DNA of 38,665 nt from Armatimonadota bacterium. GTDB lineage: Bacteria > Armatimonadota > Fimbriimonadia > Fimbriimonadales > Fimbriimonadaceae. The stretch is from the NCBI GenBank assembly GCA_027451905.1, contig DAIDHV010000001.1:1-38665 (forward strand), in the 5' to 3' direction. The position numbers were made by a program, and so were the translations under genes. The notes beneath the pieces were generated by a model. That model was not told the DNA's origin. It did not search any database and was given only the letters and a program-made list of their open reading frames with translations. Below, in pieces: positions 14,352 through 23,622 of the stretch (position 1 is the first letter of the stretch; the number at the start of each line of letters is the position of its first letter).

Positions 14352-14629
14352 ACTTTCCATATTTCCAGCCGTTCTTTTTTGATAAGGTAGCGTCAGATGG
14401 TCTTCTTCTTGCTTGGAAGATCCTTTCCCTTCAGTGAAGGATTCTTCATTTTCCGGACCCTCCATACAATCGGGTCCATCTTCCTCTTCGGAGTTGGCAC
14501 AAGACGGGCAACGGCGTTTGCCTAGAAAGAATCCTGGCAACTCACAAGCACAAAAAGTTCTTATAATCGTCAAAATCAGCTAGTAAAGATACCAGTTGTT
14601 TGTAAGTTTTATACCTTGAACTTACATTT
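14352..14629. other. Intergenic region with a doubtful antisense Cys-rich frame
   Basis: No convincing gene. On the minus strand a frame open from 14573 to 14172 begins with a TTG codon and encodes CxC...CPSC near its start, then an acidic Glu/Asp-rich stretch, and runs on through the mscL terminator into mscL antisense. It has no Shine-Dalgarno and an in-frame stop lies three codons upstream. It could be a small zinc-ribbon protein or chance. Confidence 0.3.
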
Positions 14630-14652
14630 CGTGTTACAATGCGATTGCCCAC
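14630..14652 (+). promoter_or_regulatory. Shared upstream element with extended -10, first PEP-CTERM gene
   Basis: CGTGTTACAATGCGATTGCC here is almost the same as the block at 16578-16600 upstream of the third PEP-CTERM gene. TGT-TACAAT reads as an extended -10 (TGn plus 5 of 6 consensus bases). No good -35 was seen at 17 bp. The predicted leader is about 25-30 nt. Confidence 0.5.
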
Positions 14653-14672
14653 TAAGGGGGGTTGAAAAGATC

Positions 14673-15308
14673 ATGAAAAAAATTCTTGTAATGTCTATCG
14701 TTACTGTCGCTTCTCTAACTTTTGGACGAAGCGCCTTCGCTCAACAAGTAGCCTTTAACAATTTTGGTCCTGGTATGACCTACGATAACAGTATTGGCTG
14801 GGATGTTTTTGGGACCAACTCGGGATTTGGCTATTTTGAAACAGCGATGGAGTTCCAATCTGCAACCACCGGAAGTTTAGATAGTATCACTAGCGCATTC
14901 TTCCAGGTTTTTAATTCGGGCAACATCACAGTTAATTTGTACGCGGATAACGGATCCGGTGCCTTTGGATCACTTTTGTATAGCGCAACCGAGAACATCC
15001 CGAGTGGCTCCGGAAACATTGTCACTTCAACAAATGCCAACCCCGCCATCACATTAACGGCTGGCCAAAACTATTGGGTTGACTATGCGGCAAATGTGGA
15101 TACAACGGTTGGAGTCGCATGGTACTTTGACGCTGGTCCAACTTCAACTCAAAACGTGGTGCAGTTTACTTCTCCGGGCGGCACTCCAGTAACTAGAAGT
15201 GGTGATGGCTCCCTCGAGGTGACCACTCAGTCAGTCCCTGAGCCTGCAAGCTTTGCTGCGTTAGGGCTGGGCTTGGTTGGCCTCATTAGACGGCGAAAAA
15301 CTCATTAA
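14673..15308 (+). CDS. PEP-CTERM protein 1, choice-of-anchor R-like domain
   Basis: A 211-residue secreted protein. A signal peptide (about 1-23, ending in SAFA) precedes the mature start QQVAFNNFGPGMTYD. The body is a beta-rich Gly/Ser/Thr domain of the choice-of-anchor R type, with SITSAFFQV, NITVNLYADNGSGAFGSLLYS and LTAGQNYWVDYA. The C-terminus is a PEP-CTERM sorting signal: VPEPAS, a hydrophobic helix, then RRRKTH. Exosortase normally recognises this tag and moves the protein to the surface or exopolysaccharide. The ATG at 14673 is chosen over the upstream in-frame start at 14616 because it begins the signal peptide and follows a G-rich ribosome site (AAGGGGGG). Two paralogues follow on the same strand. 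Confidence 0.9.
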   Translation: MKKILVMSIVTVASLTFGRSAFAQQVAFNNFGPGMTYDNSIGWDVFGTNSGFGYFETAMEFQSATTGSLDSITSAFFQVFNSGNITVNLYADNGSGAFGSLLYSATENIPSGSGNIVTSTNANPAITLTAGQNYWVDYAANVDTTVGVAWYFDAGPTSTQNVVQFTSPGGTPVTRSGDGSLEVTTQSVPEPASFAALGLGLVGLIRRRKTH

Positions 15309-15339: not shown

Positions 15340-15405
15340 GAGGCACCAGCTGCGACTCCTGCCGACATCGTTCTTTTAACCGAAATTCGAGACTTACTAA
15401 AGAAA
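15340..15405 (+). pseudogene. Relic of the 3' end of a second mscL copy
   Basis: Bases 15352-15405 match the last 54 coding bases of mscL (14246-14299) without gaps, with about five or six differences. They translate to [21 protein letters not shown] against [21 protein letters not shown] in MscL. A stop codon (TAG, 15331-15333) precedes the match in frame; the mscL stop position reads CAG and the frame runs on to TGA at 15475-15477. No membrane-spanning part of the channel is present. It is too short to be a channel and is best read as the surviving tail of a duplicated mscL. Confidence 0.75.
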
Positions 15406-15407
15406 CA

Positions 15408-15436
15408 GGAATCTGTTGAGCAACTCAACAGGTTCC
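15408..15436 (+). terminator. Hairpin after the mscL relic
   Basis: A 13-bp stem with one G-T wobble (15408-15420 with 15424-15436; core CTGTTGAG/CTCAACAG) and a 3-nt loop, starting right after the relic reading frame match. It may be the terminator of the lost mscL copy or serve the first PEP-CTERM gene. Confidence 0.55.
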
Positions 15437-15492
15437 TATTTCGGCTTGAGCCGGAAAGCGTTGCCAAGGTTCTGTGAATCTGGGAAAAAGGG

Positions 15493-15563
15493 GAAACTGC
15501 CTGATTTCCGCGCAAATCTGGCGGTTTTTCTGAACAACTGCCATGGATCGGCAATTGTTCAAC
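15493..15563 (+). repeat. Two-hairpin structured repeat, copy 1
   Basis: A 71-nt element that aligns without gaps to 23530-23600 (about 55 of 71 identical by eye). Hairpin A uses 15493-15507 and 15514-15528 with a 6-nt loop; hairpin B uses GAACAACTGCC (15532-15542) and GGCAATTGTTC (15550-15560) around the invariant loop ATGGATC. Each stem has one mismatch in this copy. It sits between the mscL relic and a T-rich terminator. Confidence 0.75.
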
Positions 15564-15596
15564 ATTCACATAGTTTACGTTTTTGTGATCACAAGA

Positions 15597-15640
15597 ATAA
15601 AAGGCAGATAGCAAAAGGTTGTCTGCCTTTTATCCTTGTT
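15597..15640 (+). terminator. Intrinsic terminator before the second PEP-CTERM gene
   Basis: A perfect 12-bp stem, ATAAAAGGCAGA (15597-15608) with TCTGCCTTTTAT (15622-15633), 13-nt loop, followed by a T-rich tract (TTGTTTTTTAT). It would also work in reverse because of the A-rich left flank. Confidence 0.75.
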
Positions 15641-15777
15641 TTTTATCTCTTTTCCATTATCAAACCTGACCGTTTTCTACCACAACCTCTAAAAAAATAT
15701 CTTGTTACAAACATTTGTCTTATTTCAATGTAGTTGCGTTAATATATTTATGACCATTAAATTTGGGGTTGCAAAAA

Positions 15778-16401
15778 GTGAAACACATTGTCTTTGGAAT
15801 TGGAATCTTTTGCATTGCCGCCGTCGCATCGGCTGACACCGCATTCAACAATTTTGGGCCAAGCATGGCATACAACACTCTTCATGGAGACCGAGTTTCT
15901 GGCTCCGGCTCTTCAAATGGCTACATTGAAACTGCCATGCAATTTACATCCCTTGTCAGCGGCTCTCTAGAGTCTATAACGACTGGCTTGGTTGACTTAA
16001 GCACGAGCGGCATGGGAGACTCAATGACCTTAAACCTCTACACGGATAATGGAAGCAATGGATTTGGCGCGTTGCTCTATTCTGATCACTATGACCCTGG
16101 CCTCAGTATGACTTCGCAGTTATCCAGTGTCATGAACTCAAACGCGCTCATAACGCTCACGGCTGGCCAAAAGTATTGGGTCGATATGGTGGCGGATACA
16201 GACACCAATATTGGGTGGAACTATGACTACCAAAACACCGCTAATCAGCTTGTTTATCAATGGAGCACTCCGGGAGGAACTCCAAGGCAAGGGTCTACCG
16301 ATGTTTCTCTGCAAGTCACAACTCAGTCTGTCCCTGAGCCAGCCAGCATTGCTGCTCTTGGGTTAGGGCTCATTGGCTTGCTAAAGGGAAAGCGATTTTA
16401 G
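15778..16401 (+). CDS. PEP-CTERM protein 2, choice-of-anchor R-like domain
   Basis: A 207-residue paralogue of the first PEP-CTERM protein and the most diverged of the three. A signal peptide (about 1-19, ending in VASA) is followed by DTAFNNFGPSMAYN, the same beta-rich domain (SITTGLVDL, MTLNLYTDNGSNGFGALLYS, LTAGQKYWVDM) and the C-terminal VPEPAS, hydrophobic helix and KGKRF tail. The GTG at 15778 is chosen because MKHI aligns with the MKKI start of paralogue 1 and both follow a GGGGTTG-rich ribosome site; an in-frame TTG at 15763 is the alternative. A TGTTACAAA block 67 bp upstream resembles the promoter element of the paralogues. Confidence 0.87.
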   Translation: MKHIVFGIGIFCIAAVASADTAFNNFGPSMAYNTLHGDRVSGSGSSNGYIETAMQFTSLVSGSLESITTGLVDLSTSGMGDSMTLNLYTDNGSNGFGALLYSDHYDPGLSMTSQLSSVMNSNALITLTAGQKYWVDMVADTDTNIGWNYDYQNTANQLVYQWSTPGGTPRQGSTDVSLQVTTQSVPEPASIAALGLGLIGLLKGKRF

Positions 16402-16620: not shown

Positions 16621-17256
16621 ATGAGAGCCTTCGTCTTTGGGCCGGTCGCTGTTTTTGCACTTGTTGGGTTGAGAACCATTGCTAATGCCCAGCAAGATGC
16701 GTTTAACAATTTTGGACCTGATCGGGCCTATGATAGAAGTCAGATTTGGTCTATTTATGGAAGCGGGGCACCAGGCGGTTATGTTGAAACGGCGATGGAG
16801 TTCCAATCCGCGACGACAGGAACACTTGATACCATTACCAGTGTCTTTCTTGAGCAGTATCAAGCCGGAAACATCACGGTTAATATTTATAAGGATAACG
16901 GCTCAGGTGCCTTTGGATCACTTCTATATAGCTCGGTTGATGCCATACCTACGCACTTCAACAACTTCGTCACCTTTACAAACTCTAACTCTTCAATCAA
17001 GCTAAACGCTGGTCAGAATTATTGGATTGACTATGCTGCCAATGTCGACCCAACCGTATCGGTCGGTTGGTACTTTGATTGGAATGGAACCCATAATCAG
17101 AAAGTGGTTCAATTCACCTCTCCGGGCGGCACTCCAATTGCTAGAAGTGGTGACGGCTCCCTTGAGGTGACCACTCAGTCAGTCCCTGAGCCTGCAAGCA
17201 TTGCTGCCCTTGGACTGAGTTTGATCGGCTTAATGAGGCTCCGCAAAAGTCACTAA
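16621..17256 (+). CDS. PEP-CTERM protein 3, choice-of-anchor R-like domain
   Basis: A 211-residue paralogue closest to the first copy. A signal peptide (about 1-23, ending in IANA) precedes QQDAFNNFGPDRAYD. The body carries TITSVFLEQ, NITVNIYKDNGSGAFGSLLYS and LNAGQNYWIDYAAN, and the C-terminus is VPEPAS, a hydrophobic helix and RLRKSH. The last stretch of coding sequence (SPGGTP to PEPAS) differs from the first copy at only about five bases, much less than the rest of the gene, which suggests recent gene conversion or selection on the sorting tag region. A strong terminator follows. No exosortase gene is present in the window, so sorting must rely on one elsewhere. Confidence 0.9.
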   Translation: MRAFVFGPVAVFALVGLRTIANAQQDAFNNFGPDRAYDRSQIWSIYGSGAPGGYVETAMEFQSATTGTLDTITSVFLEQYQAGNITVNIYKDNGSGAFGSLLYSSVDAIPTHFNNFVTFTNSNSSIKLNAGQNYWIDYAANVDPTVSVGWYFDWNGTHNQKVVQFTSPGGTPIARSGDGSLEVTTQSVPEPASIAALGLSLIGLMRLRKSH

Positions 17257-21650: not shown

Positions 21651-23018
21651 ATGAAGTTAGAAAATGGCAGCTTAGCAACCCCTTTGGAATCAGATTCTGT
21701 TGCTACCGTCCGTGCTGGCAGAGCCGACTTCCCTATTCTATCGACCCTCATCAACGGAAATCCACTTGCCTACTTGGATAACGCCGCAACCACCCACAAG
21801 CCACAATCCGTCATCAATCGAATTCAAAAGTTCTACGCAGCAGAAAATTCAAACATTCACCGTGGCGTCCACACCCTTACCGCCCAAGCTACCGATATTT
21901 ATGAAGAGGCAAGGTCCGCATTAGCCCAATTTGTCAATGGTTTTAGCGTTGATGAGATCATTTTCAACCGAGGCTGCACGGAAGGAATCAATTGTGTAGC
22001 CGACGCATTTGCGTCTCCAGCCGAACTTTGGCAGCATCCTTCTGGCTTGATTAGTCCGTTAAGTGAGGGTGACGTGATTCTTGTTTCCGAAATGGAGCAT
22101 CACAGCAATTTGGTGCCCTGGCAAATTGCGGCTGCAAAATCGGGAGCCGTAGTTAAAGCCATCCCTATCACCGATTCCGGCGATCTCGATTTAGACGAAT
22201 ACCAAGCTTTGCTGAAGATGAACCCAGTGCGAATTGTTGCGGTGACTCATGCCTCGAACGTGATTGGCACTGTCAACCCGATTCAACTCCTAGCCGAACT
22301 TGCCCACCAACACAGCGCGATTGTGGTGGTCGACGGTGCCCAGGCCGTTGCCCACCTTGCGATTGACGTTCAAAACCTTGGCGCTGATTTCTATGCATTT
22401 TCTGGCCATAAAATGTTTGGTCCAACCGGAATTGGAGTGTTGTGGGGCAAACAAACCCACTTAGAGGCGATGCCTCCTTACCAAACCGGCGGCGGCATGG
22501 TGCGAGAAGTCACGATGCAAAAGACAACCTTCGCCCAGGTTCCTGCTAAATTTGAAGCAGGGACCCCCAATATTGCCGGAGCCATAGGCCTTGCCGAGGC
22601 GGCTAGATACTTGGCAGCCTTGGCTAACGGCGGCTCTGGTCCTGCTTCAATTGACAAAATGCGGCCACAACTTCAGTCTAGTTTTGCGGCCCTGACTCTG
22701 GTGGAAGATCAGCTTCTGGCCCATGCCTTGCAGGCGTTGACCCCTGTTAAGGGTCTAAAAGTCTTGGGCAGGCCCCACCATCAGCTTCCTGTAATTTCCT
22801 TTGTGCTGGATGGCGTGCATCCACATGATTTGGGCACCATCCTTGATTCAGAGGGAGTTGCGGTAAGAGTAGGACACCATTGCTGCATGCCCTTGATGCG
22901 GCGGCTGGGTGTTCCTGCCACCACAAGGGCAAGTTTGGCATTCTATAACACGGATGCGGAAATTGAAAGACTGATTGATGCCATCAACAAGGCAAGGAGC
23001 TTTTTTGGTGAGCCTTGA
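21651..23018 (+). CDS. sufS: Cysteine desulfurase SufS
   Basis: A 455-residue PLP enzyme of the class V aminotransferase fold that takes sulfur from L-cysteine for Fe-S cluster assembly. Landmarks are YLDNAATTHKP (41-51), HRGVHTLTAQATDIYEEAR, SEMEHHSNLVPWQ (147-158), Asp228 in VVDGAQAVAH, the Schiff-base Lys254 in FSGHKMFGPTG, and RVGHHCCMP with the persulfide Cys411. The RxGHHC motif marks the type II (SufS) group. The family is usually about 405 residues; here the N-terminus is some 25 longer. ATG at 21651 has GGAG 7 nt upstream and is preferred over the frame opening at 21588. The stop overlaps the sufU start by 11 bp. Confidence 0.95.
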   Translation: MKLENGSLATPLESDSVATVRAGRADFPILSTLINGNPLAYLDNAATTHKPQSVINRIQKFYAAENSNIHRGVHTLTAQATDIYEEARSALAQFVNGFSVDEIIFNRGCTEGINCVADAFASPAELWQHPSGLISPLSEGDVILVSEMEHHSNLVPWQIAAAKSGAVVKAIPITDSGDLDLDEYQALLKMNPVRIVAVTHASNVIGTVNPIQLLAELAHQHSAIVVVDGAQAVAHLAIDVQNLGADFYAFSGHKMFGPTGIGVLWGKQTHLEAMPPYQTGGGMVREVTMQKTTFAQVPAKFEAGTPNIAGAIGLAEAARYLAALANGGSGPASIDKMRPQLQSSFAALTLVEDQLLAHALQALTPVKGLKVLGRPHHQLPVISFVLDGVHPHDLGTILDSEGVAVRVGHHCCMPLMRRLGVPATTRASLAFYNTDAEIERLIDAINKARSFFGEP

Positions 23019-23445
23019 TCCAACCGACCTCTACAAGGAAGTTATTTTAGACCACAATCGTTGGCCCCGCAACCGAGGCAGGCTGGAAGAGTTCAACCGA
23101 TCTTCATCCGGATTCAACCCTTTGTGTGGGGATCAGATTGCCCTCACCCTGAATGTAAGCCAAAACCAAATTGAAGACATTAAATTTGATGCCCAGGGTT
23201 GCGCAATGACGGTTGCAAGCGCCAGCATCATGACGGAGGCAGTCAAAGGCCGCACAGTGGATGATGCCCTCAAACTGTTTGATGCCTTTCATGACTGCAT
23301 CTCTGGCAAATTGCCACCGGAAAGCCTTGATGACAGCGAAGAGTATTACGCCCTGTTAGGGGTGCGAGCTTTGCCGGTGAGAATCAAATGCGTCATGCTG
23401 GCTTGGCATGCCCTGCATGACGCTCTCTCTGAAAACGAAACCTAG
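23008..23445 (+). CDS. sufU: SufU zinc-dependent sulfur acceptor
   Basis: A 145-residue IscU-fold protein. It starts at GTG 23008, inside the end of sufS, with AAGGAG 8 nt upstream. The zinc and sulfur-transfer residues are Cys40 and Asp42 in NPLCGDQI, Cys65 in AQGCAMTVASASIM, and Cys128 in IKCVMLAWHAL. The longer spacing between the second and third cysteines is the SufU-type insertion that separates it from IscU. It accepts persulfide sulfur from SufS and passes it to the SufBCD scaffold, which is not in this window. Overlap with sufS implies translational coupling and matched expression. Three hairpins follow the stop. Confidence 0.94.
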   Translation: MSLDPTDLYKEVILDHNRWPRNRGRLEEFNRSSSGFNPLCGDQIALTLNVSQNQIEDIKFDAQGCAMTVASASIMTEAVKGRTVDDALKLFDAFHDCISGKLPPESLDDSEEYYALLGVRALPVRIKCVMLAWHALHDALSENET

Positions 23446-23476
23446 GTGGGTGTTGAAGAACTCAAAACCTACTTAG

Positions 23477-23492
23477 CCCGGCAAGAGCCGGG
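23477..23492 (+). terminator. GC-rich hairpin after sufU
   Basis: CCCGGC (23477-23482), loop AAGA, GCCGGG (23487-23492): a short perfect 6-bp stem with a stable tetraloop, the first of three hairpins in the sufU-GH29 convergent spacer. No T tract. Confidence 0.35.
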
Positions 23493-23529
23493 ACGCGATG
23501 TGAAGGTGCTTTGATCCTGAACATCGTCG

Positions 23530-23600
23530 GTAACCGTCTGACTTCAGCCCAAATCAGACGGCTACCTTGAACCATTGCCATGGATCGGCAATGGTTCAAC
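23530..23600 (+). repeat. Two-hairpin structured repeat, copy 2
   Basis: This aligns without gaps to 15493-15563. Hairpin A: GTAACCGTCTGA (23530-23541) with TCAGACGGCTAC (23554-23565), one A-C mismatch. Hairpin B: GAACCATTGCC (23569-23579) with GGCAATGGTTC (23587-23597), perfect, around the invariant loop ATGGATC. It lies between the convergent sufU and GH29 genes and may act as a bidirectional terminator. Confidence 0.75.
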
Positions 23601-23622
23601 ACCCTCCTAGTTGGTTTGGGAT

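Follow-up and report, generated by a model that had tools for sequence, protein, structure and literature searches.

The 71-nt two-hairpin repeat that occurs twice in the window (the whole 38,665-nt stretch of armatimonadotal DNA that was analysed) is the 3' part of a larger element of about 169 nt, the repeat extending further upstream. Its copies are small (169 nt), non-coding and dispersed, with 26 of full length in the host genome, and we consider it fairly probable that they form a non-autonomous, genome-specific, palindrome-rich and degenerate MITE-like family, for which IS5-type insertion is the best-fitting mechanism. A MITE-like mobile hairpin was among the possibilities raised in the initial annotation of this DNA, and the copy number, sharp ends, inverted termini and evidence for target duplication bear it out. 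No description of these elements was found in the open-access literature; they are a new family, though of a common type, the miniature transposon.

The two copies in the window

The gapless alignment of 15493-15563 with 23530-23600 reported previously was reproduced with 55 of 71 identities, the runner-up gapless match to copy 1 within the window reaching 34 of 71, and the three compensated pairs described between them (A-T/T-A, C-G/T-A and A-T/C-G) were found as noted. The full units, both on the plus strand, share 114 of 169 positions. Copy 1 (15405-15573) is recognised by alignment and by a covariance-model match covering model positions 1-169 (E 1e-41) and belongs to subfamily B, while copy 2 (23442-23610; E 7.5e-54, model 1-169) belongs to subfamily A, and each contains five hairpins, H1 to H5. 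In copy 1 these are the left terminal palindrome H1 (15405-15439), with ACAG as its left tetranucleotide, H2 (15440-15455), a weak H3 (15459-15489), H4 (15492-15529) and H5 with its ATGGATC loop (15530-15562), followed by a right terminal tail (15563-15573) that ends in ATAG. The corresponding parts of copy 2 are H1 (23442-23476), a near-palindrome that starts from CTAG and contains the left inverted terminus, H2 (23477-23492), H3 (23496-23526), H4 (23529-23566), H5 (23567-23599) and a tail ending in CTAG (23600-23610).

H4 and H5 are the two hairpins first seen, and this fold was recovered with folding z-scores against shuffled sequence of -5.5 and -7.9 on the plus strand and -4.9 and -9.0 on the minus strand. 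The 3-nt gap placed between them was not, as the two hairpins abut in the family structure. Nor are the ATGGATC loop of H5 and the AAATC arm of H4 invariant, since several family copies deviate, though both are well conserved (divergence is 0.04 for the loop compared with 0.10 for all stems).

Copy 1 is located between the first two of three adjacent open reading frames with a C-terminal PEP-CTERM motif (14616-15308, 15763-16401 and 16621-17256). Just downstream of it, at 15598-15650, is an inverted repeat, ATAAAAGGCAGA..TCTGCCTTTTAT, with a T-run shortly after, which looks like an ordinary intrinsic terminator distinct from the element.

Anatomy and distribution of the family

The consensus unit is a succession of the five hairpins. 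H1, 35 nt long, is an almost perfect palindrome bounded by CTAG at both ends. It contains the left inverted terminus, which is paired there with an internal copy of itself; the other terminus lies in the right tail, whose consensus is CACCCTCCTAG. The inverted termini of the element are GNGGGTGTTGA, and the consensus terminal inverted repeats are GTGGGTGTTGA on the left and GAGGGTGTTGA on the right, weaker in both subfamily-B copies. The same kind of termini is found on a different, separate element of 175 nt (C8:61404-61578). Among 25 aligned copies, conservation breaks off sharply, at [CT]TAG to the left and at NTAG to the right.

With copy 1 as the query, 47 matches at E values up to 10 were obtained in the host genome (2.87 Mb in 37 contigs, 98.2% complete), of which over 20 were strong and almost full-length. 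The covariance-model search proposed at the outset recovered 26 full-length family members, both window copies included, together with shortened copies at C5:106700-106779 and C5:106858-106975 and solo H1 palindromes at C8:29922-29956 and C3:104656-104690. For the 25-row alignment the copy at C2:449660, which has an internal duplication, was excluded and the copy on C13 was included in truncated form. The aligned copies fall into two subfamilies, A with 23 and B with two (copy 1 and one on C9). Pairwise identity ranges from 63 to 93% with a median of 82%, so that recent activity is not visible. No match was found in 84 other genomes of the host's taxonomic family, whether searched by DNA or with the covariance model (the latter with stricter filters), in 290 other genomes of the phylum by a shallow DNA search in which two candidates were scored per genome, or in viral contigs by two scans for exact H5 and H1 patterns.

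In one copy, C2:449660-449894 (L131:661-894), part of H5 occurs twice and the two pieces are separated by unrelated sequence. At C5:106700-107130 (L029:3001-3430) and C8:61404-61578 (L122), a repeat of the form GGATTCCCCTC..GAGGGG..GTCGACGAAG..GACGGGGTGG, which we take to resemble repeats near DUF559 genes, lies inside or between element fragments; on C5 the GGATTCCCCTC-type repeat is present twice, with B-type element ends, directly 3' of a gene.

Covariation and decay of the hairpins

The compensated pairs between the two window copies were initially read as the product of selection on structure rather than on sequence. Across the 25 aligned copies, in which 88.8% of cells are paired, both-side changes indeed exceed expectation, with 31 cells compared with 10.6 in shuffles and none of 500 shuffles as high. 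Relative to the consensus, 42 double changes were counted, and 27 of them are Watson-Crick (null 8.9). These are unevenly spread, as 17 of the 27 are held by the two copies of subfamily B, while the 23 copies of subfamily A have 10 (null 5.2, p 0.029), next to 12 pair-breaking double changes, one wobble and 182 single changes. Most compensated changes therefore separate subfamilies A and B, and the pair first compared consists of one copy from each.

As a whole, that reading is only partly supported. Stems have diverged as much as loops and linkers (300 of 2964 cells, 0.101, compared with 106 of 943, 0.112; p 0.33, and p 0.31 in subfamily A alone). In an RNA under selection, G.U on its own strand is expected to be better tolerated than A.C; here G.T and A.C mismatches are balanced (70 and 61, p 0.48), as they are among the single changes of subfamily A (62 and 53, p 0.46). 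Both results indicate that copies, once inserted, accumulate changes with no apparent regard for pairing. Real as the covariation is, it does not demonstrate a selected RNA, and pairing was maintained in the lineages that founded the subfamilies. In the course proposed for this family, hairpins would have been maintained during the mobile phase by selection on mobile copies, by template switching inside the palindromes or by both, and copies would have decayed after insertion free of visible constraint on pairing.

Template switching can create compensatory changes without selection, and its reported mark is homogenisation of the arms with inversion of the spacer, in the accounts of PMC8604942 and PMC8794818. 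Such an event is apparent in the copy at C5:181021-181189, where the H1 loop GAA is inverted to TTC between matched arms and a G-C pair replaces the adjoining G.A mismatch of the consensus at 11-25; a standard pair occupies this position in eight of the 24 copies with H1 (G-C in six, T-A in two). That template switching during DNA replication produced most of the compensated changes, through arm homogenisation and loop inversion and with no need for structural selection, is a serious possibility, if one we hold at somewhat below even. It is weakened by there being just one clear loop inversion and by the 12 of 23 subfamily-A double changes that break pairing. This proposal competes only over the cause of the covariation and is compatible with a MITE-like origin.

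Evidence for a possible target duplication

The left ends are CTAG or TTAG in most copies and the right ends are N-TAG, including GTAG and ATAG. The first bases of the left and right tetranucleotides are equal in 17 of 25 copies compared with 11.6 expected (p 0.003), and the equal ends include TTAG/TTAG and, once the left end is shifted by 1 nt, ATAG/ATAG. In the other eight copies they differ, which a per-site divergence of about 10% accounts for only in part. IS5 itself duplicates Py-T-A-Pu, with CTAG in 15, CTAA in three and TTAG in three of the 24 cases listed in PMC5493358. The element resembles IS5 of E. coli and IS5-derived MITEs in its inverted termini and in having ends that are mostly CTAG with some TTAG, and the agreement between ends suggests an IS5-like target duplication of 4 bp. 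Insertion would accordingly have taken place at CTAG-like tetranucleotides with about 4 bp duplicated, as by IS5, a step for which the support is statistical. The GTAG and ATAG right ends break the strict IS5 rule and, together with an interior that is a chain of hairpins, set the element apart from the IS5 family.

IS630 prefers CTAG. An IS630/Tc1-mariner-type MITE that duplicates only the TA inside this tetranucleotide was considered; IS630-family elements target and duplicate TA in the description of PMC2170065, and TA ends occur in many bacterial MITEs according to PMC2229807. A duplication of TA or TAG alone is disfavoured by the agreement of the first bases of both ends beyond chance, C before and G after the TA are conserved, and the PF13358 domain was not found in the genome, so that an origin of this type appears unlikely.

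Insertion sites and stop codons

The elements are usually located just 3' of genes. When their position relative to gene ends was checked, as had been advised, the stop codon of an open reading frame of at least 100 codons was found exactly in an end tetranucleotide of nine of the 26 full-length copies, at the left end in five and at the right end in four, one of these stops being the TAA in CTAA. The count, like its background, was based on open reading frames rather than on curated genes. Copy 2 is among the nine, its left CTAG supplying the TAG stop (23443-23445) of a NifU-like gene (22975-23445, plus strand; PF01592). Eight of the nine abutting genes have a Pfam domain over the cut-off and the ninth has sub-cut-off matches only; besides that of the NifU-like gene, these domains are those of cytochrome bd subunit II, RNase E/G, acyl transferase, carboxyltransferase, M48 peptidase, haem-dependent oxidative demethylase and FAD-binding/ALO. 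Several of these domains reach near the C-terminus, and the stops hence look natural rather than the result of truncation.

In the fetched DNA outside the elements (216,298 bases, mostly surrounding copies), 440 CTAG sites were counted, comprising 332 coding sites, 19 gene stops and 89 other non-coding sites. The share of gene stops among copies (9/26) is in modest excess over that among non-coding CTAG sites (19/108; binomial p 0.028, Fisher p 0.054), and targeting of CTAG combined with the avoidance of genes accounts for most of it. Short frames (70-120 aa) that run across some copies were treated as spurious, and a longer one of 456 aa shares 44 nt at its 5' end with a copy. Because CTAG includes the stop codon TAG (and YTAG has CTAR as its complement), insertion at a C-TAG stop would leave the gene intact, and the surviving copies would thus be intergenic and often abut stop codons.

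The copy behind argJ on C13 lacks most of H1; the argJ stop coincides with positions 33-35 of the element, in its internal CTAG, and ArgJ matches its Pfam model through the last residue. This copy and the solo H1 palindromes on C8 and C3 bear on the idea of a modular, CTAG-delimited composite, in which the 35-nt H1 and the remaining 138 nt, each running from CTAG to CTAG, are separable units. Were this true, either unit could enter or vacate a CTAG, in many cases one at a gene stop, and no mobile unit would be smaller than the 35-bp palindrome, which would be recognised by its structure. The same observations would follow, with no additional mobility, if one unit had been deleted precisely between CTAG repeats, and we regard a composite of this kind as quite improbable.

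Search for the mobiliser and comparison with known systems

In the mechanism proposed for the MITE-like family, a DDE transposase would have recognised the inverted ends in trans. In the host genome the termini pattern with up to two mismatches gave 71 matches compared with 18 for the reversed control; no kilobase-spaced pair of inverted termini was found among the pattern matches, and there were no matches to PF01609 (DDE_Tnp_1), PF13586 (DDE_Tnp_1_2), PF13358 (DDE_3) or PF01797 (Y1). That none of the searched transposase families was found counts against the proposed mechanism, and a host without a detected IS5-type transposase or full-length partner is a further difference from the IS5 family. 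The exact termini pattern was present in three of the 84 other genomes of the taxonomic family, compared with four control matches, and these three had no second convincing terminus within 3 kb. The presumed transposase may have been lost or may be unassembled, and the situation is compatible with decay, since decayed families can lack an autonomous partner. At the end of C15, a 12-kb contig, a fragment of a Mutator-family (PF00872) transposase was observed (L135:3-584, minus strand). Its coding frame contains a one-mismatch match to the terminus, which was taken for chance.

The element is comparable to Correia/NEMIS, ERIC and RUP as characterised in PMC2229807, being 100-200 bp long, non-coding, dispersed and highly base-paired, with terminal inverted repeats. 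Those elements are described there as mostly carrying a TA motif at the ends and a stem in which the 5' end pairs with the 3' end, whereas the present one has five local hairpins in a row. Like the REPIN/REP sequences of PMC3116915, it is palindromic and extragenic and shows compensatory changes, which are commonly seen in REPIN hairpins according to that source; it differs in its few copies and its asymmetric five-hairpin unit.

A REP-type system was among the first suggestions, and the anatomy, with palindromes throughout and a hairpin near the right end, would suit a single-strand (HUH) system, whether REP/REPIN with a RAYT or IS200/IS605- or Helitron-like, in which the recognition end would consist of the right-end hairpin, the next 11 nt and CTAG. 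The Y1 transposase PF01797, sought as the RAYT, had no match in the genome, inverted termini are present and the agreeing end tetranucleotides point towards duplication, so that a system of this sort is very unlikely.

Least probable of all is a structured RNA or 3'-UTR element (a terminator, an RNase-processing site or a protein-binding RNA) under selection after insertion, since its strong folding, the both-side changes above shuffles across all copies and the many copies directly 3' of genes are set against stems no better conserved than loops, equal numbers of G.T and A.C mismatches, an orientation that is not fixed (abutting genes at the left end in five cases and at the right end in four) and no above-gathering Rfam match for either window copy. 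In the window Rfam recognised tRNA alone, and a permissive search with one further copy gave sub-threshold matches only. Two forms of this proposal that had been put forward earlier, a terminator family and a protein-binding RNA, find no backing in particular, as the aligned copies have neither an end T-run nor a strand bias and their orientation to the abutting gene is not fixed.

Implications

The CTAG preference shows how an element can occupy stop codons without damage. The family also illustrates clearly why compensatory changes seen in a pair of repeat copies do not prove a functional RNA. Where palindromes are mobile, the same pattern can be produced by subfamily history and by template switching of the DNA, and the rates of stem and loop change, together with the balance of G.T and A.C mismatches, distinguish such causes from a functional RNA.
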